Shown here: positions 1,588 through 12,633 of the stretch, piece by piece
How positions within the stretch are numbered: the stretch's first letter is position 1
Layout: the number at the start of each line of letters is the position of its first letter
DNA from: Candidatus Desantisiibacteriota bacterium
Lineage (GTDB): Bacteria > JACRDZ01
NCBI GenBank assembly: GCA_016209155.1
Contig: JACQWU010000054.1
Location: 2,314 to 15,164 of the forward strand
Length of the DNA: 12,851 nt
Reading direction: 5' to 3'
Program-made: the position numbers and the translations under genes
The notes under the pieces: generated by a model
Seen by the model: the letters and a program-made list of their open reading frames with translations, nothing else
Told to the model about the DNA's origin: nothing
Databases searched by the model: none

Positions 1588-3144
1588 ATGATTTCAATAA
1601 TGTCGCGTACTGTTAAAGAAGAAAATGGTTTAAGGCCATTTCAAAGAGAAACTTTGAACGCTTTACAGTCTGACGCTGATTTAATTGTTGTTGAATCTCC
1701 TGTAGGCTCAGGCAAAAGTCATATTGTCAGACAAGTCGCAGAAAATTGGCAGGGAGCGGTTGTTCTTACATACCCGACAAAAATTCTAATGGATACGCAA
1801 AGGCGGGCGTTAAAAAATGATTTTCCTGAATCAATAATGTGGCCGGAAGAAACAGGTATCCCGCGAAACAATGCTCCTACAATTTTTTATTATTCCTCTG
1901 ACGCGTTAATATCTTTCCTGAAACAGCAAAAGAAAGATTATCGTCTTGATAGGAGTGAACTGTTTGATACGATTCTTCATCAGCAATTTTGGGCAAGCAA
2001 AAGAAATATTATAGTGACCTCTCCGGATGTTCTTCATCTTCTGGCAAATTTGAAGGCTTATAGGGGATCGCAGAGGATGTTGTCCTTTTTGAATGGATCA
2101 GTGGTTGTATTTGATGAATTTCATTTATATACCGGCCTGAAAAATTTTCCAAAATTACTTGATAATCTTTTTGAGTCCGGCATCAAAAAAGTTATTCTTC
2201 TTTCCGCCACCCCTGTGTTTACAGAAGAAATGCAAAGTTTACTTGCCCGGTATAAGACACACTATATTAATTTTAAAAATTCTATCGGCGGCGAAAGCGA
2301 TACGGTATTTAATTACCCGTTGGATCTTGAATTTGTTAATTGCCGGTACACGAAACGAAATGATTTAATAGCGGTTCTCGAACAGTATATTCCCTGCCTG
2401 CCAAAGCCTATGGCGATTATATTTGACTCAGTTTTTAGGTTGAGGCATATATTACCTTTGCTTAAAAAACAGTTTGGCGCCCAGTGGAATATAGTTGAAT
2501 ATAGCGGTTTTCATAAGGATAATTATTCGCTTAGCGATAAGACAATTTTAGTTGGCACATCCTCAATTGAAGTCGGTATTAATATGGTTTTCAAAAGCCT
2601 TATTACAGAAGCATCTTATTGGACATCAGCGGTGCAAAGAATTGGAAGAGTTGGAAGGTTTTGCGATGGAAAGGTAATTGTACTGACCACGAAGAATATG
2701 GAGCCTTATCTGTCTTCAAAAAACATAATTTCCCGTGATGAATTGGAGAATGATCTCAAGTTGGTATTGAAGGATATAAAAATGACGCATGTTTGTGGAG
2801 ATATGTTTAGAGGAGACAGCTACCCTTTTCTTGTTTATGACCTTGACTATAAAAGGCTTTCGTCCTATACTGAATCAATATTTTCAATGTACGAACCGAC
2901 AAGCTGGATTAATGACTGGCAATGTTTGAGTGTTCAGGAAAAAGAAGAACACCTTGCAAAATATATTAAAAATAATGAAACCATTTCAGATATTTTGCTT
3001 AAGGATAAATTATTTCCATTTTGGGGCGTTATTGAAGGCCGTTTAAGAGATAAATACGAAAAAATTTCTGTGCATGCTGCTGCTGATGAATTAAGTATTC
3101 TTTGTGAAGAATCAAATATGAGATATGCTTTTGAAAGGAATTAA
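1588..3144 (+). CDS. cas3: Type I-D Cas3 helicase (Cas3', no HD domain)
   Basis: This 518-residue superfamily 2 helicase should unwind and translocate along target DNA once the I-D surveillance complex has bound. Visible motifs, in order: Walker A SPVGSGKS at residues 37-44; motif Ia TYPTKILMDT at about 61-70; Walker B as DEFH at 176-179 (F in place of the usual A of DEAH); motif III SAT at 206-208; a C-terminal RecA-like domain with GTSSIEVGINM; and motif VI QRIGRVGR at 350-357. There is no N-terminal HD nuclease; the helicase begins almost at once. This is the known type I-D arrangement, where the HD lies on Cas10d. ATG 1588 follows GAGGT (1578-1582) at five bases; ATG 1600 is possible but less well placed. 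The next gene begins two bases after its stop. Confidence 0.93.
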   Translation: MISIMSRTVKEENGLRPFQRETLNALQSDADLIVVESPVGSGKSHIVRQVAENWQGAVVLTYPTKILMDTQRRALKNDFPESIMWPEETGIPRNNAPTIFYYSSDALISFLKQQKKDYRLDRSELFDTILHQQFWASKRNIIVTSPDVLHLLANLKAYRGSQRMLSFLNGSVVVFDEFHLYTGLKNFPKLLDNLFESGIKKVILLSATPVFTEEMQSLLARYKTHYINFKNSIGGESDTVFNYPLDLEFVNCRYTKRNDLIAVLEQYIPCLPKPMAIIFDSVFRLRHILPLLKKQFGAQWNIVEYSGFHKDNYSLSDKTILVGTSSIEVGINMVFKSLITEASYWTSAVQRIGRVGRFCDGKVIVLTTKNMEPYLSSKNIISRDELENDLKLVLKDIKMTHVCGDMFRGDSYPFLVYDLDYKRLSSYTESIFSMYEPTSWINDWQCLSVQEKEEHLAKYIKNNETISDILLKDKLFPFWGVIEGRLRDKYEKISVHAAADELSILCEESNMRYAFERN

Positions 3145-3146
3145 TA

Positions 3147-5729
3147 ATGCTTACAACCGAAGAAATAAAAGCTATATTAAAACCTCAATTTGGCTTTTTG
3201 GGTAAAGGCGGGGAATTCAAAGAAGAGCCCTTATGGGTTCATGCTTTTACTTTATGGAGTATCGCGTCAAAAATTATAAAATTTATCCCTCGGTTTGATG
3301 ATAAGGAGCGGAGGCTTCTTGAGATTACCGTTTTAATCCATGACATTGGTAAAATGTCTGATAAAAATCAATCTATATTATCAGGTGGGGATGAGGGTAG
3401 GGTCGGACATACTCAAACAAAAGAACAAATTAAAGCGTATTTTGAAAATCACGGACTGATAGAAGAGTTCGCTCTTTCGGAAAGGGATATTGATTTTATT
3501 TATCATGCTCATTTACATCATGATTTGCCGGAAGAAGCCCTGAAAACAGCCCCGCCGAGTTTGGCAATTTACGCGGATATTGTCAGGTACGCTGATTGGC
3601 TCGCTTCACAAGAAAGGGTTGACAGGCAGTTGATACAGCGTATTTCCAATTCATTAGAGCCATTTTGTCAGATTACTCTGGTCAACATTTCAAGGCCTGA
3701 TGGGCCGTCTAATTATTTATTATTTGATACAGCCTATAATATTTACAAAGAAACAGGCTGGGATGTATTAAGTGTTTTTCCAAATAGTTTATTGCTTATT
3801 GCCCCTAAAAATGCTTTGTATCCAACAAAAAATGAAATTGTCCAAAAATTTCAAGACAGGCTTATCAGAGAATCTTTATTACTGCAGAAACCTGTTGTAA
3901 CGAATTTTGCTTCCGTTCTTCTTGCTGGTGAGTCAGCTAAAAATCCGAAATTATACCTGGAAGTTCATAAGGAATATATTATTGAAACTCTTGGCGATTT
4001 TGAGAAATCGCATTTATTGTTTTTTAAGCTCTTAATAGAAATAATAGATATTTCCGGGAAGTTGGTTCCTGACATTAAAGAAGCATATCTAACACTGGAT
4101 ATTCTTAAAGGGCTTAGCGGAACAAGAGGGATACCGATAGCGAGAAAAAAATGGATAGATTCAGGCGGAAAAATTACCGAGCCGCTTAAAGAAATGTTAA
4201 AAGAGATGTTTAATTTCTTTTCTTTAAATAAAGTTGTTCCTTTTGAAATATTTAATAATGAAGACGCGGTAAAAATTTTAAAACAGGTTTCGGCTGAGGA
4301 GCTTTATAATATTTTATACAAACTAACAGAAAAATTATTTCCAAATATATCAAATATCGCGTTTCAAAATGCTCTGGATTCTCTTATCAGTATGGAAGAA
4401 GAGGCCGATTTTAGAGAGATTGCTATCAATAGATTTGAAAAATATAAGGAATATAAAGCAACACAGAATCCGGAAAAGGGGATATGTGAGAGTTGTGGAT
4501 TCGTAATAGCTTTTCCCACTCAAAAATCTCTGAATTTTCCGGGAGGAAAACGATGGGGTTTTTCACAGATAAATGCTCATACTGACAGCGCGAGAGCCAC
4601 ATGCACTCTATGCGCTTATGATACTATGATTATGAGAAAAGATATTCCGGAAAGCAAAAGTTCTATATATGTAAGGCTTGAATCAAAGAGCGCTGATATA
4701 TGGTTTTTATATGATGACATTAGTAAATTAATACAAAATTTGGACGCATCTTTTTCTAATCCTTATGAACTGGAAAACCTTAATGAAAATAGCGGGTATG
4801 GTTTTCTTCCTGTTCCAAAGACTTTTAAAATGCCGAAATTTAAAGAAAAAACAAAATATATTTTACAAGGCTTTAATAGCGTTAGAGGATATATCATCCC
4901 AATAACACGCGTTGATAATAATGCAAGCCCAAAAGATTTAAGGGCAAAATATTTAAGCCTTTACGCCCTTCTTAAAATGATGGGATTTGACGCGCATATC
5001 GGGTTTGAAGAGCAGAACGGGCTGTTTGGTGATAATCCTATTGCAAAGCATGGAGAGGATTACGAAAGTCTTTACTACAGAGGATTAGCTGTTAAATATT
5101 TGGCAAGAATTACTAAAAAAGACAGTAACGCACATGTATTTGCCGAAGCATTGTTGACAAAAAGCCCTTCAACGGCATTATCTAAAATTTGTGAATCAGT
5201 AGAAGATAACAAAATTAAACAAGAACGAGTTATTTATATTATGGAAGCAATTGTGAAAGGGGATTTTAAAATATCAAAAAACGGAGGTGAATATACTATG
5301 AAAGAATTATTGCAGGACGCGGCATTTTTCTCGGAAGGAATTCCAGCTTTTATACGGAGCAAAAAAAATGGGGATTATGATGCGTGGTATACAAAATCAT
5401 CAAAACACCTCATTACAAAACCTGTCTCAAAGACAATGAATAGTATTCTTCAAGGTGATGATTTTGAAACAGCTTTTGCAAAATTTCTGTCATTAATAAG
5501 AGAAAATATATCATCAGATAAAACTAAAGAAGATTCCGAAGGTAAAAAACCTAAAGTTGATATAAATGACCTTAAACCTTTTGTTGAAAAGACAAAAGAA
5601 ATATTAAAACGGTATTATAATCTAAGAGAAAATGATGTATCTTCTTTTATTCAGGCAAAAAATGCTTTGTTATCCTCAATCTATTTATTAAAACGTTATC
5701 CAAATATAAAGGAGGTTGTTAATGGTTAA
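3147..5729 (+). CDS. cas10d: Cas10d large subunit with HD nuclease
   Basis: This 860-residue large subunit of the type I-D complex begins after AAGGA (3135-3139) at seven bases. Its N-terminus is an HD phosphohydrolase/nuclease domain: H32, LIHDIGK with H65-D66, H88, and YHAHLHHD with H120, H122, H124, H125 and D126. In type I-D this domain takes the place of the Cas3 HD and is the likely DNA-cutting site. A zinc-finger-like pair, CESC (C447, C450) and CTLC (C486, C489), lies in the middle, as in other Cas10 proteins. I see no GGDD palm motif, in keeping with I-D members, which are not known to make cyclic oligoadenylate. The last 143 residues are helical and can be made separately from an internal start (5298). 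It overlaps csc2 by eight bases. Confidence 0.92.
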   Translation: MLTTEEIKAILKPQFGFLGKGGEFKEEPLWVHAFTLWSIASKIIKFIPRFDDKERRLLEITVLIHDIGKMSDKNQSILSGGDEGRVGHTQTKEQIKAYFENHGLIEEFALSERDIDFIYHAHLHHDLPEEALKTAPPSLAIYADIVRYADWLASQERVDRQLIQRISNSLEPFCQITLVNISRPDGPSNYLLFDTAYNIYKETGWDVLSVFPNSLLLIAPKNALYPTKNEIVQKFQDRLIRESLLLQKPVVTNFASVLLAGESAKNPKLYLEVHKEYIIETLGDFEKSHLLFFKLLIEIIDISGKLVPDIKEAYLTLDILKGLSGTRGIPIARKKWIDSGGKITEPLKEMLKEMFNFFSLNKVVPFEIFNNEDAVKILKQVSAEELYNILYKLTEKLFPNISNIAFQNALDSLISMEEEADFREIAINRFEKYKEYKATQNPEKGICESCGFVIAFPTQKSLNFPGGKRWGFSQINAHTDSARATCTLCAYDTMIMRKDIPESKSSIYVRLESKSADIWFLYDDISKLIQNLDASFSNPYELENLNENSGYGFLPVPKTFKMPKFKEKTKYILQGFNSVRGYIIPITRVDNNASPKDLRAKYLSLYALLKMMGFDAHIGFEEQNGLFGDNPIAKHGEDYESLYYRGLAVKYLARITKKDSNAHVFAEALLTKSPSTALSKICESVEDNKIKQERVIYIMEAIVKGDFKISKNGGEYTMKELLQDAAFFSEGIPAFIRSKKNGDYDAWYTKSSKHLITKPVSKTMNSILQGDDFETAFAKFLSLIRENISSDKTKEDSEGKKPKVDINDLKPFVEKTKEILKRYYNLRENDVSSFIQAKNALLSSIYLLKRYPNIKEVVNG
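5283..5290 (+). promoter_or_regulatory. Internal ribosome binding site in cas10d for Cas11d
   Basis: GGAGGTGA is a near-perfect anti-Shine-Dalgarno complement lying inside cas10d, seven bases before an in-frame ATG at 5298. In the cas10d frame it only encodes part of N-G-G-E, so it looks kept for translation initiation. Its quality is as good as or better than that of the operon's gene starts. Confidence 0.8.
5298..5729 (+). CDS. cas11d: Cas11d small subunit from internal start in cas10d
   Basis: The ATG at codon 718 of cas10d, in frame and preceded by GGAGGTGA, would give a separate 143-residue protein identical to the C-terminus of Cas10d (starting MKELLQDAAFFSEGIPAFIR). It appears largely alpha-helical, with a charged linker near SSDKTKEDSEGKKPK and a helical end near ILLKRYPNIKE-like sequence, which suits a Cas11 small subunit. 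It is established for type I-D, I-B and I-C systems that small subunits are made by internal translation of the large-subunit gene. In the complex, several copies would line the belly and contact the displaced DNA strand. What I see is the ribosome site, the ATG and the size; production in this organism is inferred. Confidence 0.78.
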   Translation: MKELLQDAAFFSEGIPAFIRSKKNGDYDAWYTKSSKHLITKPVSKTMNSILQGDDFETAFAKFLSLIRENISSDKTKEDSEGKKPKVDINDLKPFVEKTKEILKRYYNLRENDVSSFIQAKNALLSSIYLLKRYPNIKEVVNG

Positions 5730-6579
5730 TTTACTCACTACCCCATCGTTATTGAGCAAAGGTGTATATTTACAGTTAGTTGTAGAAATGAAATTATTAG
5801 ATGACGCTATTATACGGAGTAATGAGGCAGAAGAAGTTTTAACCCATCATTATAAAGCTATCGAGAACAGGTTTATTATTCCATGGCGAAAGGTTAAAGG
5901 TAAGTTAAGGCGGTTGGTATTAGAAAAGCAAAGGGGTTTGGATATTGAACCGGATTGTGCATTAAAAGATGCGCTGTGCATGCGTTGCCCATCATGTTTA
6001 TTATTTGGAGGAACCGGTGAAACAAGTGGAGCGGGCCCTTATGGTAAACAGGATTATAATATTTTATCCCGTGTCTTAGGTGAAACTTTCATTTCGACCA
6101 ATAAAGTTGAAGGAGTCCAAAATTATACTCAAAATGCTGTCGGAGAAAAAGACTTAATGACCGGCCAGGCCCTGATGACTATACTTACTGTTCCAAAGGA
6201 AACTATTTTTAAAGGTGTTATAACTATAAAAGATCCAACACCTGAAATGGTATCAATTATTGCGGATAACCTTAAAAGATTAACAAGAATAGGCGCCAGG
6301 AGTGTTGAATGGGGACGGGTTGAAACAAATATACTAGGTTATAAATTATCTGACAGAGAAGATATTACTGTTTATCATTTATTGGAAGATTCTTCACAAA
6401 CCGTATTCCAAAATGATCTTAACGCTTTTATCCAAAGTTTGCCGAATGCTGATGCGTCTTATACAACATTAAACAATCAACTGCCGGAACTTTTTAAAGA
6501 CCTGATTGCAAGACGTTCTCCTAAAAAAGATAAAAAGGTAAAAACAAAAGAAGATGAAAATGAGGCAGGAGCAGAATAA
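5722..6579 (+). CDS. csc2: Csc2 (Cas7-family backbone subunit, type I-D)
   Basis: This 285-residue Cas7 protein should polymerise along the crRNA spacer to form the complex backbone. I place the start at ATG 5722, six bases after GGAGG (5711-5715); a TTG six bases earlier is less likely. Recognisable Csc2 segments are KGKLRRLVLEKQRGLDIE; a cysteine cluster C79, C86, C89, C92 (CALKDALCMRCPSCLLFGGT) that probably binds zinc; the glycine-rich SGAGPYGKQDYN; and ITIKDPTPEMVSIIADNLKR with RIGARSVEWGRVE. The C-terminal tail is lysine-rich and probably disordered (SPKKDKKVKTKEDENE). It overlaps cas10d by eight bases and csc1 by one (TAATG), so the three are translationally coupled. The subunit carries no nuclease motif. 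Confidence 0.9.
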   Translation: MVNLLTTPSLLSKGVYLQLVVEMKLLDDAIIRSNEAEEVLTHHYKAIENRFIIPWRKVKGKLRRLVLEKQRGLDIEPDCALKDALCMRCPSCLLFGGTGETSGAGPYGKQDYNILSRVLGETFISTNKVEGVQNYTQNAVGEKDLMTGQALMTILTVPKETIFKGVITIKDPTPEMVSIIADNLKRLTRIGARSVEWGRVETNILGYKLSDREDITVYHLLEDSSQTVFQNDLNAFIQSLPNADASYTTLNNQLPELFKDLIARRSPKKDKKVKTKEDENEAGAE

Positions 6580-7523
6580 TGGATATATATCCATATACTA
6601 TTACGCTTATTGATCCTTTATTTTATTCGCATGAAGCGCTGTCAGGAGCATATACACAGCCCTATATCCATGCTACAGCTATTAACCACGCGGCAGCCTG
6701 GAGTATGGGACGAGCGCGGGAGGATCAGAGCTATATTATTTCAGACGCGAATGGCGGAAGGAATATCCCGCGATATGAGCATTCATGGATTGAGCCCGAT
6801 TTTTATTTTACCCCGGCCGCGATTAAAGGGGAAATAAATTATATCGTTGAAACAGTTAAAGGAGATATGGATTATTTTATTCAGCCGGGATTTGGACAGG
6901 CTAAAATAATGGGTAAAAATATTGGAAGAAATGAAGTTTTAAAGGCATACAGAATCTTTTTGTTGCCGCCTGAAACGGTATTTACAGGATACCTTCATGC
7001 GAATGAGGATGTTGTTGAACATATTCCGAACTACATAAGGCTGGGTAGTTTTAGAGGAAAAGCGGAGCTTAAAATTGAGAAACAAGAAAAAATATTTGGA
7101 ATAGTTTCCGATCAATATGTTAATCATCTAGTGGATCCCTTAGTTTCTAGTGTAAAACGCGGTGTAATGATAGGTATGTTTCCTTATCCAATAATAGACA
7201 ACGCGCTTGCCGGGAATACTTACGAAATACGAAAACATGGACGAAGAGAGTTTATCGCAATACCTTCGCGCGCTGTTACGTTTAATAAAGATGAACTTCT
7301 TAAAAGACTTCAGGAGTTGAAACCCGGGCTATCAAAAGCTAAAGATGTTTCGTTAACCTTAAAAGACCGTACTTATATTATTTTGCACATGATAAGAACA
7401 GCTCTTTCCGTAAAACTTTTTTTGGCTGGGATTCATGGGGAAGAGCGGCTTGAGTCTGAATTAAAAGAGATAGAAGGCTTTGAAGTTATTCGTCTGGCTT
7501 CAAAAGGAGAAAATCAAATATAG
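6579..7523 (+). CDS. csc1: Csc1 (Cas5-family subunit, type I-D)
   Basis: This 314-residue protein is placed as the Cas5-type subunit that caps the 5' handle of the crRNA. It starts at the ATG of a TAATG overlap with csc2, seven bases after AGGAG (6567-6571). The N-terminus, YPYTITLIDPLFYSHEALSG followed by a Y-I-H-A-T-A-I-N-H-A segment, is typical of Csc1, and a later stretch KAYRIFLLPPETVFTGYLHA matches the family beta-strand pattern. Together with its place directly after csc2 this makes the call fairly firm. It seems longer than the Csc1 proteins I recall; the extra part is at the C-terminus (about 240-314), which is charged and helical. Its stop TAG overlaps an ATA that opens the next reading frame. 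Confidence 0.85.
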   Translation: MDIYPYTITLIDPLFYSHEALSGAYTQPYIHATAINHAAAWSMGRAREDQSYIISDANGGRNIPRYEHSWIEPDFYFTPAAIKGEINYIVETVKGDMDYFIQPGFGQAKIMGKNIGRNEVLKAYRIFLLPPETVFTGYLHANEDVVEHIPNYIRLGSFRGKAELKIEKQEKIFGIVSDQYVNHLVDPLVSSVKRGVMIGMFPYPIIDNALAGNTYEIRKHGRREFIAIPSRAVTFNKDELLKRLQELKPGLSKAKDVSLTLKDRTYIILHMIRTALSVKLFLAGIHGEERLESELKEIEGFEVIRLASKGENQI

Positions 7524-7819
7524 ACGAATCGATTATTAATGTTGATGAAGAAACAGCGCAAGAATATCAAAAACGCATAGAAAGAAAACTTGCTGGGAAA
7601 GAACCGCTTGATAAAACATTGGTTTTCTACGAAATATTAAACCAGCTTTCAGGTAAGCCTATGAGCAAAGAAAATCTTGTGGATGAGTTGGAAAATAATT
7701 CAAAAGAATGTGTTTCTGTTAATTTGTTTTACCTTGAAAAAATCGGTTTTATTGAATATAATAATGGCAAATACACCATAATTCCTAAAATAAAGAAGCT
7801 CTTAACAAAAACAAAGTAA
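7520..7819 (+). CDS. Small winged-helix protein with non-standard start
   Basis: A 99-residue reading frame runs from ATA 7520 (overlapping the csc1 stop TAG) to a TAA at 7817-7819. The coding-like sequence DESIINVDEETAQEYQKRIERK begins well before the first TTG (7619), so starting at 7619 would cut off a plausible helical N-terminus. GGAG (7506-7509) lies ten bases before the ATA. Residues about 33-99 look like a winged helix: LVFYEILNQL, then a helix pair, then LFYLEKIGFIEYNNGKYTI as recognition end and wing. It may bind DNA and regulate the operon, or act as a small complex-associated protein; I do not recognise a named family. The start could instead reflect a -1 frameshift from csc1, giving a Csc1-winged-helix fusion. 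Confidence 0.6.
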   Translation: MDESIINVDEETAQEYQKRIERKLAGKEPLDKTLVFYEILNQLSGKPMSKENLVDELENNSKECVSVNLFYLEKIGFIEYNNGKYTIIPKIKKLLTKTK

Positions 7820-7825
7820 AGTTGT

Positions 7826-7851
7826 ATTCATAATTATGCCATTTTATGAAT
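7826..7851. promoter_or_regulatory. Dyad upstream of the second winged-helix gene
   Basis: ATTCATAA (7826-7833) and its exact reverse complement TTATGAAT (7844-7851) are separated by ten bases and end 11 bases before the ATG at 7863. The 18-bp centre-to-centre spacing, the position in the only real gap between csc1 and cas6, and the winged-helix product directly downstream make an autoregulatory operator plausible. A weak promoter (TTGTAT 7823-7828, 16 bases, TATGAA 7845-7850) would overlap it. Confidence 0.35.
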
Positions 7852-7862
7852 GAAAGTATACC

Positions 7863-8129
7863 ATGTGCTTATTCGCGCTGAAATATTTATTTTATATAAT
7901 TTTTGAGGGGGAAAAAACAATTCCTGAATTAATGAAAGACGTTGGTGGTTCACAATCTAACGTCTCGCATGCCATGAGCACCCTTTACAAACTTGGTTTA
8001 GTAACCCATCCCGACAAGAGGGTGAGGTACTGGACAGCTGATTCATCAAATGAATTAGTTCGATTAATGGAAAAACTTCTTTTTGTTTCTGGAAATAACC
8101 CTGCTTTTATAATAACAAAACGGGAATAA
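7863..8129 (+). CDS. Winged-helix (ArsR/MarR-like) regulator
   Basis: This 88-residue protein starts at ATG 7863 with no strong ribosome site. Residues about 3-57 form a winged helix: ALKYLFYIIFEGEKTIPELM (helices 1 and 2), SQSNVSHAMSTLYKLGLV (recognition helix, with S-Q-S-N-V-S-H typical of ArsR-like regulators) and VRYWTADSS (wing). A leucine-rich helix, ELVRLMEKLLFV, follows and could dimerise. No metal-binding cysteine pair is seen. It probably binds DNA; the dyad just upstream is an obvious candidate target. The stop TAA overlaps an ATA that opens the next frame. If a base was lost near 8125, or if a -1 shift occurs there, this protein would continue into the nucleotidyltransferase reading frame as a two-winged-helix fusion. 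Confidence 0.7.
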   Translation: MCLFALKYLFYIIFEGEKTIPELMKDVGGSQSNVSHAMSTLYKLGLVTHPDKRVRYWTADSSNELVRLMEKLLFVSGNNPAFIITKRE

Positions 8130-8632
8130 CGATAAAAATTCTTATTGATTCAACAAAATTTTCAAAAGTTACTGTAATAAAAACTTTAAAAAAATTAAAA
8201 CTATCGAAATTAATAGAGAGAGTTGGTAAATCAAATAATTATCCCTCTCAAACAAATTCTGCCGGCTTATTTTTTAATATATGTTTTCTTATACGCGCTT
8301 TTTTTAATAAAAATAAAAACGCTGAATTATCTTTGCCTGAAATCATGGAACAACTTAAAAATGATAGTTCAGTTTTGATTTTGGCGCATTATGGCTCCTC
8401 TGCAAGAGGAACTATTGATAAATTTAGTGATATAGATATTTTTGTTGTAACCAGAGATAAAATTTCCAGAGGGGATATTATTTCAAAATACTCCGGCAAA
8501 AAAATAGACCTTAATGTATATTCCAAAAAGGGATTTTTAGAACTTTTAAAATTTCAGCCGGATTTTATTCGCAATCTCTCCAGGTCAAGAATTCTAAAAG
8601 GTAAAGATATTTTGGAAGAGGTAGTTAAATGA
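8126..8632 (+). CDS. Winged-helix/nucleotidyltransferase (MNT-like), odd start
   Basis: The frame is open from 8099 to a TGA at 8630-8632 and has no ATG, GTG or TTG until 8333, which would remove a convincing winged helix. I therefore mark it from ATA 8126, which overlaps the previous stop; 168 residues. The N-terminal part reads TIKILIDSTKFSKVTVIKTL then KLSKLIERVGKSNNY, the usual winged-helix end of such fusions. The nucleotidyltransferase core is HYGSSARGTIDKFSDIDIF, with G90-S91 and aspartates D102 and D104, and a third, D128, in KKIDLNVY: a complete Pol-beta-type metal site. Relatives are MNT antitoxins that adenylylate HEPN toxins, but no HEPN gene is seen here. Its stop overlaps the cas6 start as ATGA, so it is coupled to cas6. 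The substrate is unknown. Confidence 0.7.
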   Translation: MTIKILIDSTKFSKVTVIKTLKKLKLSKLIERVGKSNNYPSQTNSAGLFFNICFLIRAFFNKNKNAELSLPEIMEQLKNDSSVLILAHYGSSARGTIDKFSDIDIFVVTRDKISRGDIISKYSGKKIDLNVYSKKGFLELLKFQPDFIRNLSRSRILKGKDILEEVVK

Positions 8633-9294
8633 TTATTCAACAGTCAATTCTTAAGTTAAAAACAGAACCTTCACTATCCGCTCATGGAAATAGTTTAAGA
8701 GGCTATATCTCCAATCAGTTTCCCCAATATGACATTCTCCATAATCATAAAGATGTTGGCAAATTTATATATTTATATCCAAGAATTCAATACCGGATTA
8801 TAAAAGAAGAAGGATATATCATTGGCATTGAAGAAGGAAGTAATTTGGTTCAATTGATAGGATCAAAAATTGAAACTATTACACTGAAAGATGAAATTCA
8901 CAAAATTTTAAAAAAACAGATTACATCTGAAGATGTCCAATTTGGAATTACGGATTCTGTTATAACATATTCTTTTATAAAGCCCTGGCTTGCCTTGAAT
9001 GAAAAAAATTATAGTGATTTTATACATGTAAGAACTAAAAAAGATAAAGATGTAATTCTGAAAAACATATTAACCGGCAATTTGCTAAGTATATCTAAAA
9101 GCCTTGGGTATATTGTAGAACAACAAATAAATGTTACATCTTTAAATTTATCTGAGACGGACTCATTTCTTAAAGGCACCCCCATGCTTGGTTTCCTCGG
9201 CACCTTCTCCGTCAACTTTGAAATCCCGGATTTCTGGGGAATCGGGAAGTCGGTGTCGCGGGGATTTGGGACAGTAAAAAAACTTAAAATATAA
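8629..9294 (+). CDS. cas6: Cas6 crRNA-processing endoribonuclease
   Basis: This 221-residue Cas6 should cut the CRISPR repeat transcript to give mature crRNAs for the I-D complex. The ATG is the first half of an ATGA overlap with the nucleotidyltransferase gene. The C-terminal glycine-rich loop GIGKSVSRGFG (residues 204-214) is the hallmark of the family and contacts the repeat RNA. H19, H38 and H40 near the N-terminus are candidates for the general-acid histidine, H38 or H40 (ILHNHKD) being best placed. Base composition changes sharply within the gene: bases 9181-9270 hold 51 G+C in 90, against 13 in 50 just before. This last third of the RNA-binding domain also uses different codons, as if it had been exchanged with another allele. 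Confidence 0.88.
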   Translation: MIIQQSILKLKTEPSLSAHGNSLRGYISNQFPQYDILHNHKDVGKFIYLYPRIQYRIIKEEGYIIGIEEGSNLVQLIGSKIETITLKDEIHKILKKQITSEDVQFGITDSVITYSFIKPWLALNEKNYSDFIHVRTKKDKDVILKNILTGNLLSISKSLGYIVEQQINVTSLNLSETDSFLKGTPMLGFLGTFSVNFEIPDFWGIGKSVSRGFGTVKKLKI

Positions 9295-9353: not shown

Positions 9354-9629
9354 ATGGCTGTTATAGATATGGTAGCAAAAGAATTACATATGTCACCTAA
9401 AAATCTTTTAAAAGAAAGTCTAAAAACTTATCTCGAAATAAAACTTTCAAAATTAGAAGCAGACATTTTTTTAATTGCAAAAAAATATGGAATTAAAGAT
9501 GTTTTTGAACTTGATTCAAGAATTAAAAAGGGATTCTTAAATGAGAAGGAAACATACGAGGATTACTTTGTTTTAGATAATCTTGAGGCCGAACGGGAAA
9601 AAACAAAGAAAATCATGGAGAAGCTTTAA
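9354..9629 (+). CDS. TumA-like antitoxin
   Basis: This 91-residue acidic and basic helical protein has a strong ribosome site, AAAGGGGG, just before ATG 9354. The N-terminal part, VAKELHMSPKNLLKESLKTY, could be a ribbon- or helix-type DNA-binding element (the pattern resembles a helix-turn-helix with M-S-P-K as turn). Then follow AKKYGIKDVFELDSRIKKGF and a charged C-terminal helix, typical of a tail that wraps a toxin. Its stop and the toxin start overlap (TAATG at 9627-9631). The central section resembles the partial antitoxin at the window's left edge. The name rests on gene pairing with a TumE-like protein. Confidence 0.65.
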   Translation: MAVIDMVAKELHMSPKNLLKESLKTYLEIKLSKLEADIFLIAKKYGIKDVFELDSRIKKGFLNEKETYEDYFVLDNLEAEREKTKKIMEKL

Positions 9630-9982
9630 TGCCGGCAATTGAAAATTTAAAAAGGATAGCTGAAATTGAATTTTCGGATATTGTTAAAACTACATATCAA
9701 TATGAATATAAATTAAGAATCATTCTTATCAACAATACTTTTATAGATGTATATTTATCTCAAAAACTGCACAACAAATTTGGTTTTCATTGGGAATGCA
9801 AGGACAAAAAGAAAACTATTTATAGGTATGACAATTTTCCAGATATGAATTGGCAGTCCATATCGACCTTCCCGTATCACTTTCATAATGGAGCGCAAGA
9901 TTCAGTTGAGGCTTCACCGTTTCCGCTAACAGCAATTGAAGGATTTAGGGCATTTATGAAATTTGTAAAAAATAAATTGTAA
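9629..9982 (+). CDS. TumE-like toxin family protein
   Basis: This 117-residue protein is coupled to the preceding gene by a TAATG overlap. The middle holds beta-strand-rich LRIILINNTFIDVYLSQKLH, then KKKTIYRYDNFPD (about residues 69-81) and a histidine-bearing FPYHFHNGAQDSVEASPFP. The Y-R-Y-D-N followed by an F-P-x-H element is the part I associate with TumE/DUF6516 proteins, and the same layout occurs in the protein at 184-582. The pair sits between cas6 and cas1, splitting the effector and adaptation halves of the locus. It may be an ordinary addiction module, or it may guard the locus against loss. No catalytic residue can be assigned firmly. Confidence 0.62.
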   Translation: MPAIENLKRIAEIEFSDIVKTTYQYEYKLRIILINNTFIDVYLSQKLHNKFGFHWECKDKKKTIYRYDNFPDMNWQSISTFPYHFHNGAQDSVEASPFPLTAIEGFRAFMKFVKNKL

Positions 9983-10234: not shown

Positions 10235-11236
10235 ATGCAACTCGTAATTAACTCTTATGGTTCATATCTTCAAAGAAACGGCGACTGTTTTAAAGTCAAA
10301 GTTGATGATAAGGTTTCTGAAATATCCTGCAAAAAAATATCATCTATCCTTATTTCAACAGCCGCGTATATTACAACTGATGCCATAAAACTGGCAATGG
10401 AAAACAATATTGATATTGTTTTTATCGATGATTTTGGGGATCCTTACGGCAGGATATGGCATCCAAAGCTTGGAAGCACTACACTCATAAGAAGAAGACA
10501 ACTGGAAATATCGGAAACTGAAAAAGGGCTTAATCTTGCGGTTGATTGGATAAAGACAAAATTTACAAATCAAATAGAATTATTTAAAAGGCTTAGGGAA
10601 ACAAGGCCGCAAAAATCCGCAGAGATTACAAGCTACATTTCAAAACTTGAAAATACAATGACAAGCTTAAACTCTCTTTCAGGTACAATTGATGAAAATC
10701 GGGGAACCATTATGGGGATAGAGGGAAGCGGTGGAAGAATTTATTTTGAGGCTTTAAGTTTTTTAATGCCGGATAGATATAAATTTGAAGGACGAAGCAG
10801 AAATCCGGCAAAAGATGAATTTAATTGTTTATTAAATTATACCTATGGAATACTTTATTCCAAAGTTGAGAAAGGCTGTATAATCGCGGGGCTTGATCCA
10901 TATGTGGGTTTTATCCATACGGATCATTATAATAAAAAGTCACTGGTGTTTGATTTGATTGAAAATTATCGTATCTGGGCAGATGAAACTGTGGTAAACA
11001 TGTTTGCCGGAAGAAAAGTCAAGGTTGAATATTTTGATAAAATTCCAAATGGATTAACTTTAAACAAAGAAGGCAAAGCCGGATTAATCACCGAATTTAA
11101 TACATATATGGATGAATCAATTAGATATAATGGAAGAAATATTAAACGCGATAATATAATTCAGTTTGATTGCCACAGGATTGCGAATGAATTGATAAAA
11201 GGCAGTGAAAGTGTAAGTGAAAGTGGGGGAAAATAA
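10235..11236 (+). CDS. cas1: Cas1 spacer integrase
   Basis: This 333-residue Cas1 should form, with Cas2, the integrase that inserts new spacers at the leader end of an array. ATG 10235 follows AAGGA (10224-10228). The N-terminal beta domain runs to about residue 80 (LVINSYGSYLQRNGDCFKVK). The helical catalytic domain holds E163 in GIEGSGGRIYFEAL, H228 in GFIHTD, and E243 in the D-L-I-E segment; these are the expected metal ligands, with the usual 15-residue spacing from H to E. The last residues, SESVSESGGK, are encoded by a run of AGTGNN hexamers (11204-11227) and look like a tail acquired from that repeat. A hairpin with a T-run precedes the gene, so it may have its own promoter; I see no convincing one. 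Confidence 0.95.
   Translation: MQLVINSYGSYLQRNGDCFKVKVDDKVSEISCKKISSILISTAAYITTDAIKLAMENNIDIVFIDDFGDPYGRIWHPKLGSTTLIRRRQLEISETEKGLNLAVDWIKTKFTNQIELFKRLRETRPQKSAEITSYISKLENTMTSLNSLSGTIDENRGTIMGIEGSGGRIYFEALSFLMPDRYKFEGRSRNPAKDEFNCLLNYTYGILYSKVEKGCIIAGLDPYVGFIHTDHYNKKSLVFDLIENYRIWADETVVNMFAGRKVKVEYFDKIPNGLTLNKEGKAGLITEFNTYMDESIRYNGRNIKRDNIIQFDCHRIANELIKGSESVSESGGK
11204..11227 (+). repeat. Hexamer cluster A (AGTGNN x4) at the end of cas1
   Basis: Four consecutive units read AGTGAA, AGTGTA, AGTGAA and AGTGGG inside the last codons of cas1. They are inverted relative to cluster B (11237-11266), so the transcript can fold across the cas1/cas2 junction. Confidence 0.75.
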
Positions 11237-11572
<336 letters not shown>

Positions 11573-11602
11573 AGTGTAAGTGTAGGTGAAAGTGTAAGTC
11601 AA
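11573..11602 (+). repeat. Hexamer cluster C (AGTGTA-type) after cas2
   Basis: Units read AGTGTA, AGTGTA, GGTGAA, AGTGTA and a decayed AGTCAA, starting one base after the cas2 stop. It is inverted relative to cluster D at the start of cas4, so C and D bracket the four-helix-bundle gene. Confidence 0.75.
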
Positions 11603-11620
11603 AGATAGGGAGATGAATTT

Positions 11621-11989
11621 GTGAATAAAATAAAGAGCGTTGAAGACCTATATGTTTTTAAAAAAGCACATGCTTTAGTATTGAAAATATATGAATTAAC
11701 GGAAAAATTTCCATCCCATGAGAAATTTGGTTTGATTTCACAAATAAGAAGATCGGCATATTCAGTTCCTTCAAATCTTATTGAAGGTGGTAATCGTCTT
11801 GGGAGTAAAGAATATAGACAGTTTGTTGGCATAGCAAGAGGATCAATTTCAGAGCTTAAATATCAGCTTATGCTATCTAAAGATTTAAAATATATTTCAT
11901 CTGAAATGTTCGAGGAAATTAAAAAAGAAATTTTGGAAATTAGCTGTATGCTAATGGGATTAGCAAATTCTTTATATAAAAAGGTATGA
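11621..11989 (+). CDS. Four-helix bundle protein (23S IVS/S23 type)
   Basis: This 122-residue protein begins at GTG 11621, after AGGGAG. It matches the four-helix-bundle family first known from intervening sequences in 23S rRNA genes: SVEDLYVFKKAHALVLKIYE (helix 1), FPSHEKFGLISQIRRSAYSV (the conserved F-P-x-x-E-x-x-G-L-x-x-Q-I-R-R-S-A), PSNLIEGGNRLGSKEYRQF (the conserved N-I-x-E-G), then two more helices. Relatives include the Avd accessory protein of diversity-generating retroelements, but no reverse transcriptase is seen here. The biochemical function is unknown; a pentameric nucleic-acid-binding barrel is the usual structure. It stands between cas2 and cas4, framed by inverted hexamer clusters, which suggests insertion with its repeats rather than a role in adaptation. 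Confidence 0.9.
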   Translation: MNKIKSVEDLYVFKKAHALVLKIYELTEKFPSHEKFGLISQIRRSAYSVPSNLIEGGNRLGSKEYRQFVGIARGSISELKYQLMLSKDLKYISSEMFEEIKKEILEISCMLMGLANSLYKKV

Positions 11990-11994
11990 TTTAA

Positions 11995-12633
11995 ATGGAT
12001 GCCATTACTCCCATCACTTACACTTGCACATACACTGATTTTGACACTGACATGACTGCCATGATTACACCATCAGAGGTAGTAGAGCATCTTTACTGCC
12101 CGCGATTTACGTATTTTATGAATTGTCTGGATATCCCCCAGCATGAGGAATTAAGGTATAAAGTATTGAAAGGCAGAGAGCTTCATGAGAAACGTGAGGT
12201 TGAAAACCGCGAATATATTAGAAAAAAAATAGGATGTGTAAATAAAGATGTATCGGTATATATCGCTTCACGCAATTTGAGAATAAGAGGCATTGTTGAT
12301 GAAGTGCTTGAGCTTAATGATGGTACACTTGCTCCGTTAGATTACAAGTTTGCGGAATATAATGATTTCACATTTGAAACTTACAAAATTCAATCGGTAT
12401 TATACGCGCTTTTGATAATGGAAAATTATAACAAACCCGTTAAAAAAGGTTTTATCTGCTATATAAAAAGCAGCAATAAGATAAAAGAAATTATTTACAG
12501 TGAACAGGATATTTGTTATACTAAAGATGTTATTAATGAAATATTTAATATAATACTAAAAGGCTATTATCCCAAAAAAACTAAATACCAGAACAAATGT
12601 ATTGATTGTTGCTACAGGAATATTTGTGTATAA
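11995..12633 (+). CDS. cas4: Cas4 exonuclease for spacer trimming
   Basis: This 212-residue RecB-family Cas4 with an iron-sulphur cluster should trim and select prespacers by their PAM for Cas1-Cas2. Four cysteines fit the cluster: C35 in EHLYCPR and C202, C205 (or C206) and C211 in KCIDCCYRNICV. The nuclease site is H64 (RELHEKRE), D102 (GIVDEV), D116 and K118 (PLDYK), and Q133 in the QSVLYA motif. ATG 11995 has AAAAGG upstream. The first 20 residues (rich in T, Y and D) are encoded by hexamer cluster D and have no counterpart in the family; ATG 12052 or 12061 (MITPSEVVEHLYCPR) would give the normal start, but has no clear ribosome site. Ends 218 bases before the window edge. Confidence 0.93.
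   Translation: MDAITPITYTCTYTDFDTDMTAMITPSEVVEHLYCPRFTYFMNCLDIPQHEELRYKVLKGRELHEKREVENREYIRKKIGCVNKDVSVYIASRNLRIRGIVDEVLELNDGTLAPLDYKFAEYNDFTFETYKIQSVLYALLIMENYNKPVKKGFICYIKSSNKIKEIIYSEQDICYTKDVINEIFNIILKGYYPKKTKYQNKCIDCCYRNICV
12013..12035 (-). repeat. Hexamer cluster D in the start of cas4
   Basis: On the minus strand this reads GTGTAT, GTGCAA, GTGTAA, GTGAT. The 17 bases at 12020-12036 are identical to 11245-11261 in cluster B, and a decayed unit follows near 12041-12046. It lies within the first codons of the longer cas4 reading frame. Confidence 0.75.

Follow-up and report, generated by a model that had tools for sequence, protein, structure and literature searches.

Three small reading frames between csc1 and cas6 raise the question of what a cassette of winged-helix and nucleotidyltransferase genes is doing inside a CRISPR-Cas operon. 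The operon lies in the window, by which we mean the whole stretch of 12,851 nucleotides analysed here, and its proposed assignment to type I-D holds: a separate Cas3' helicase, a Cas10d with HD, Csc2 and Csc1 are all present, with Cas3', Csc2 and Csc1 exceeding the NCBIfam cut-offs and Cas10d matching the PADLOC Cas10d. The genes follow each other in the order cas3', cas10d, csc2, csc1, the three reported frames, cas6, a TumE-type pair, cas1, cas2, a gene for a four-helix protein and cas4, with the following features (window positions).

1588..3144, + strand: cas3' (I-D helicase); TIGR03158, 8e-29, over the cut-off
3147..5729, + strand: cas10d (large subunit with HD); PADLOC Cas10d, 7e-9; Cas3 HD, 3e-8; 64-70% identity to relatives
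5716..6579, + strand: csc2 (cas7d); TIGR03157, 9e-24, over the cut-off
6579..7523, + strand: csc1 (cas5d) with a C-terminal extension, last ~45 aa deleted; TIGR03159, 3.5e-12; 314 aa vs 359-360 aa in relatives
7509..7510 (base uncertain by a few nt), no strand: junction of a 203-nt deletion, csc1 tail and A' start gone; DNA alignment vs three intact loci
7520..7819, + strand: remnant A, the C-terminal two thirds of A' (winged helix), lacking a normal start codon; 44-53% identity to intact A'
7863..8129, + strand: remnant B, the N-terminal winged helix of BC; HTH_5, 1.7e-7; 51-58% identity to BC
8093..8100, no strand: junction of a 49-nt deletion, BC frameshift; DNA alignment
8099..8632, + strand: remnant C (stop-to-stop), the second winged helix and MNT-type nucleotidyltransferase of BC; NTP_transf_2, 6.3e-8; 51-52% identity to BC
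8393..8509, + strand: active site GS-X10-DxD and third Asp in remnant C; sequence motif
8629..9294, + strand: cas6 (Cas6b family), ATGA overlap with C; Cas6b_C, 5e-41
9354..9982, + strand: toxin-antitoxin pair in the cas6-cas1 gap, a small upstream gene (TumA-like by position) and TumE; TumE, 1e-13, for 9629-9982
10235..11236, + strand: cas1; TIGR00287, 4.5e-88
11249..11572, + strand: cas2, start uncertain; 65-79% identity to Cas2 of relatives
11995..12633, + strand: cas4; TIGR00372, 7.6e-37

The frames announced as three small genes do exist at 7520-8632, but they are the remains of two genes. Frame A has no ATG, GTG or TTG at its start, the only in-frame candidates being ATA at 7520 or TTG at 7619, and frame C has none of these codons before TTG at 8333. 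ATA starts for A and C, with an ATAG overlap at 7520 and an ATAA overlap at 8126, were rejected since the relatives favour loss of the original starts. Alignment to intact relatives shows that A is what remains of a 149-aa protein, which we call A', without its first third, and that a larger protein, BC, has its first third in B and the remainder in C. The DNA alignment shows that the 203-nt deletion at the csc1/A border removed both the last 45 residues of Csc1 and the beginning of A', and that the 49-nt deletion at the B/C border shifted the BC frame and thereby split it into B and C. The module in the window is broken and probably no longer works as it does in the relatives. Given that the source is a MAG, we considered that the frameshift might be an assembly error; deletions of 203 and 49 nt are atypical of such errors, and one relative shows a separate loss, which makes an error less likely but leaves it some probability. 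What was described as two winged-helix proteins stands for B, which matches the ArsR-type HTH_5, and less so for A, whose similarity to a winged helix is weak. The third product had been predicted to be a winged-helix/MNT-type nucleotidyltransferase with a complete active site, and C indeed matches NTP_transf_2 and has all the active-site residues, namely GS at 8393-8398, DID at 8429-8437 and the third Asp at 8507-8509 (D102, D104 and D128 in the original prediction, which numbered from the ATA at 8126). The ATGA overlap said to couple this last frame to cas6 is present at 8629. The picture given by the initial scan is thus corrected: the small genes it reported here are debris, and the intact form has to be studied in relatives.

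Scanning the window Csc2, as a single sequence, against 84,980 species genomes identified four close operons with Csc2 proteins 73-79% identical, belonging to a Candidatus Kuenenia MAG (L026), a Nitrospira MAG (L027), a Thermodesulfovibrionia MAG (L028) and a Nitrospirae MAG (L029). Three of them (L026, L027 and L029) have two intact genes between csc1 and cas6. The first, A', encodes a 149-aa winged-helix protein and starts 86 nt before the csc1 end in a different frame. The second, BC, overlaps cas6; its product of 282-288 aa combines two winged helices with a nucleotidyltransferase bearing the MntA motif GSX10DXD. These three operons hold the only intact copies known, every one from a MAG, and the branch of type I-D to which they belong is rare. 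In L028 the Csc1 tail is intact, and with it the first A' codons that overlap it; of BC, only about 38 codons from its end remain, interrupted by stops. L028 lost the cassette by another deletion than the window, which indicates that the module was lost twice independently. The cassette is lost or broken in two of the five operons (window and L028), and it is dispensable. Its presence at the same place in three related operons, with a remnant in the fourth, is more than chance would produce. The check proposed at the outset was to look for the same nucleotidyltransferase beside csc1 or cas6, with recurrence in several phyla as support for a functional link, and it was found between the two genes in Planctomycetota and Nitrospirota MAGs besides the window genome. 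A search of about 640 genomes did not find full-length BC elsewhere. Recurrence by independent recruitment in several phyla is not supported, the pattern being that of a single insertion that moved with the operon: a tree built from Csc2, Csc1 and Cas6 joins the Kuenenia and Thermodesulfovibrionia operons (support 100), a grouping that implies either passage of the operon from one phylum to another or a binning error. The best reading is that the cassette results from one insertion and recurs across phyla by transfer of the whole operon.

The search set for BC consisted of 395 genomes of the phylum of the Thermodesulfovibrionia MAG and 241 relatives of the window genome. Full-length BC, scoring above 500 bits, was found only in the three intact operons, at one copy per genome, and the next best hit outside the branch reached 41 bits. 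Searches of plasmids, phages and viral contigs with C, BC or Csc2 gave no match, and A, B and C were unmatched in more distant I-D loci. In the sister operons of a neighbouring branch (G593, G709, G564 and G1101; Csc2 59-66% identical), csc1 is followed directly by cas6, with no cassette. As to selection, pN and pS were 0.22-0.25 and 0.69-0.83 for the nucleotidyltransferase part of BC, where synonymous sites are saturated, 0.14-0.23 and 0.64-0.79 for cas6, and 0.33-0.36 and 0.68-0.81 for A', the latter from the three intact-to-intact pairs only, the window row being one codon out of phase and left out. BC is under purifying selection of about the strength seen in cas6, and the constraint on A' is weaker than that on BC. 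The window branch is not faster in the nucleotidyltransferase part of BC, which suggests that the decay is recent or that parts of the module are still constrained.

These data bear on a rival account of the cassette, namely that it is a toxin-antitoxin remnant riding in the operon with no role in CRISPR, temporarily kept and now disappearing. Its breakage in the window, its near disappearance from L028 by an independent deletion and the sister operons that manage without it are what such a passenger would lead one to see. However, purifying selection like that on cas6 across a deep divergence, the intact overlaps with csc1 and cas6, and the failure to find free full-length copies of BC in the 395 and 241 genomes argue against it, and we deem this account rather unlikely.

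The composition of BC indicates where the cassette may have come from. The Pfam models TrmB, HTH_5 and MarR_2 each exceed their cut-off in at least one BC, and Polbeta or NTP_transf_2 is over its cut-off. AlphaFold2, run on five sequences only, gave two confident winged helices in BC, with the nucleotidyltransferase part at low confidence (pLDDT mostly 40-65), and a helical fold with a winged helix for A'. The winged helices of BC superimpose on ArsR/MarR repressors with a VIA-align Z of about 10; both the Foldseek and the VIA-align lists are filled by winged helices, and the structural comparison confirms these only. The predicted nucleotidyltransferase is thus assigned from the Pfam matches and the GS-X10-DxD motif, which in MntA transfers AMP to HepT (PMC7641770). 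All four cassette sequences (BC of L026, L027 and L029, and remnant C) retain this motif and the third Asp; the ten other MNT-type proteins compared lack an Asp at the latter column.

Among free-standing proteins, those closest to BC have a winged helix-MNT architecture and a length of about 180-220 aa; BC aligns to them over its residues 94-281 (E 6e-17). In nine of nine loci, the gene next to these free relatives encodes a helical protein, mostly with a 4-nt ATGA overlap, and the eight scanned are all HEPN above the Pfam cut-off, the ninth (L071) being almost the same as L070. Known MNT-HEPN pairs have the MNT gene upstream, with the antitoxin as its product (PMC3710099). In every intact cassette locus, the gene that follows BC with the same type of overlap is cas6, and a HEPN gene beside BC is absent. 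The suggestion of an MNT-type antitoxin with a toxin that belongs to the Cas machinery, or has given way to it, is therefore backed in part, by the kinship to HEPN-paired MNTs and by cas6 in the HEPN slot. The idea that one of the neighbouring proteins conceals a HEPN toxin was considered and rejected: hhalign comparisons of Cas6, A' and the Csc1 extension showed no meaningful similarity, with probabilities <1%.

Compared with known systems, BC shares with the winged helix-MNT subgroup of HEPN/MNT (HepT/MntA, type VII), paired with class II HEPN (PF05168), the domain order, the GS-X10-DxD motif and the overlap with the next gene. It differs in having cas6 instead of a HEPN gene, an extra N-terminal winged helix, the partner A' and a third Asp that the free relatives compared do not show, and it scores 16-21 bits against a cut-off of 60 for the NCBIfam MntA. 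The PADLOC candidate PDC-M05A, in PADLOC just a candidate defence family, matches the second winged helix and nucleotidyltransferase of BC (5e-10), but is a protein of about 200 aa without the first winged helix. Csa3 and other winged-helix regulators of cas operons are likewise winged-helix proteins in cas loci, and BC weakly matches the winged-helix part of Csa3 in PADLOC (6e-9); however, it has no CARF match, carries a nucleotidyltransferase and reaches 15.6 bits against an NCBIfam cut-off of 60.2. The similarity to the Hailong nucleotidyltransferase HalB is short (4.5e-6), confined to the nucleotidyltransferase core and below the cut-off (23-26 vs 190 bits). A Cmr1-MntA fusion (PDB 9z7q), to judge from its name, couples an MNT domain with a subunit of a CRISPR effector, but Cmr1 is a type III subunit and the similarity of BC is not significant (E 0.6); in the literature searched, we found no paper on this fusion and none on such a type I-D component. 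A review of type I-D mentions frequent transcriptional regulators and no nucleotidyltransferase (PMC10212523). The parts are of known kinds, and their combination, with cas6 replacing HEPN in its slot, appears to be new.

The reading we hold most likely, and to which we give about half of our confidence, is that the cassette is a once-inserted winged helix-MNT antitoxin without its HEPN toxin, which now serves as a DNA-binding nucleotidyltransferase regulator of the cas operon. In a single event, the antitoxin gene of a winged helix-MNT/HEPN module would have entered a type I-D operon between csc1 and cas6; its HEPN toxin would have been lost, leaving cas6 in the slot of the toxin. BC, with or without A', would then recognise an AT-rich palindrome where the BC gene begins and, by binding it, set the expression of BC itself and of the downstream genes from cas6 on, so that control of cas6 expression by the cassette is plausible. 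The MNT domain would switch this regulatory state by attaching a nucleotide, AMP to judge from its descent, to a client that is either a protein or a nucleic acid. Sharing an operon with cas6 is no proof of a role in CRISPR immunity, and the choice among a regulator, a solitary antitoxin, a passenger and a modifier of Cas proteins goes beyond what sequence data decide.

A candidate for the element bound by such a regulator is the exact 16-mer ATATAATTATACNATG, which each of the three intact genomes carries in a single copy, located where BC begins; the surrounding DNA there reads ATATAATTATAC. It contains the palindrome TATAATTATA, and a TATAAT lies at -12 to -7 of the conserved ATG, as would be expected of a leaderless promoter for BC. 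Alternatively, the palindrome may simply be a -10 box. When the region was scanned for promoters, promoter-like matches were no commoner than in shuffles, and the DNA alignment shows that the window has lost the 16-mer. Since an upstream translation start is possible, in which case the same bases would code for YNYT, the operator reading is suggestive only.

Alternatively, BC might act as a solitary antitoxin, adenylylating and disarming HEPN toxins encoded elsewhere (in the host, on plasmids or in phages), or guarding the CRISPR locus within its rotating toxin-antitoxin cargo. The kinship of BC to HEPN-paired MNTs agrees with this, as does the cas6-cas1 gap, where all close relatives examined carry genes of toxin-antitoxin type, among them the MNT-HEPN pairs of L028 and L068, but the intact loci have no HEPN gene beside BC. 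Moreover, the extra N-terminal winged helix and the co-conserved A' are both missing from the free modules, and the fixed place and tight csc1/cas6 overlaps suggest a local role, so that we give this alternative a minor chance.

A local client of another kind might be a Cas component. The Csc1 proteins of all five cassette-clade operons carry a C-terminal extension of about 110 aa (359 vs about 247 aa), located at 7260-7523 in the window and at 11528-11926 in L026, whereas those of the four sister operons are 246-248 aa long and have none. The extension has no credible Pfam match and, against the PDB, only chance matches to fluorescent proteins. Together with the position of cas6 in the HEPN slot, this distribution fits direct modification of a Cas component, such as Cas6 or the Csc1 extension, in place of the HEPN toxin. 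In a fuller form, BC would nucleotidylate Cas6, extended Csc1 or the assembled complex and thereby restrain the type I-D effector, with the Cas machinery as the client. Against this, L028 has the full Csc1 extension and cas6 without the cassette, and HEPN similarity is absent from Csc1, A' and Cas6; both forms strike us as quite improbable.

The coupling of CRISPR immunity with toxin-antitoxin parts has long been discussed (PMC3506569, PMC3710099), and a toxin-less, antitoxin-like gene kept under selection in a type I-D operon fits this idea. An antitoxin-derived nucleotidyltransferase fixed in an interference operon without its toxin would make it testable whether such antitoxins turn into regulators or modifiers of Cas proteins.

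Several smaller observations concern the rest of the locus. The cas6-cas1 gap contains differing toxin-antitoxin or related small genes in every close operon examined (window 9354-9982; L026 14265-15030; L027 13931-14813; L028 12826-13532; L029 3616-5585; also L068, L063, L064 and L065). The types found are a TumE pair, four-helix S23/IVP, MNT with HicA, MNT-HEPN (in L028 and L068), a YhcG nuclease with an antitoxin/nucleotidyltransferase, PIN, MNT-HepT-like and Bro-N with S23; three modules stand in series in G1101 (L068). This gap looks like a hot spot for toxin-antitoxin type cargo. A conserved gene pair, near-identical between L028 (5086-5627) and L065 (3901-4442), is located upstream of cas3; in L065 it combines a PBECR2-like nuclease domain (below the cut-off) with a DUF2283 gene, and it looks like a further toxin-antitoxin pair. 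Upstream of the window operon, a second TumE-family toxin gene is found at 184-582 (Pfam 1.7e-16), and the 19-nt palindrome AGGTCACAATTTGTGACCT, a possible operator, occurs at 674-692, upstream of an ORF6N gene (1003-1548), and again inside it at 1210-1228; ORF6N genes also precede cas3 in L026, L064 and L065. The contig of the window also carries, outside it on the upstream side and ahead of a short N run, the frame L025 73-1467, which is ComM/YifB-like at its start and then UvrB-like and, judged from its translation, is a probable assembly chimera. Finally, related repeats of the type GTGTAAGTGTA / TCACATACACTT at window 11237-11266, 11574-11603 and 12014-12036 border cas2 and the four-helix S23/IVP gene (11621-11989), which suggests an inserted element.
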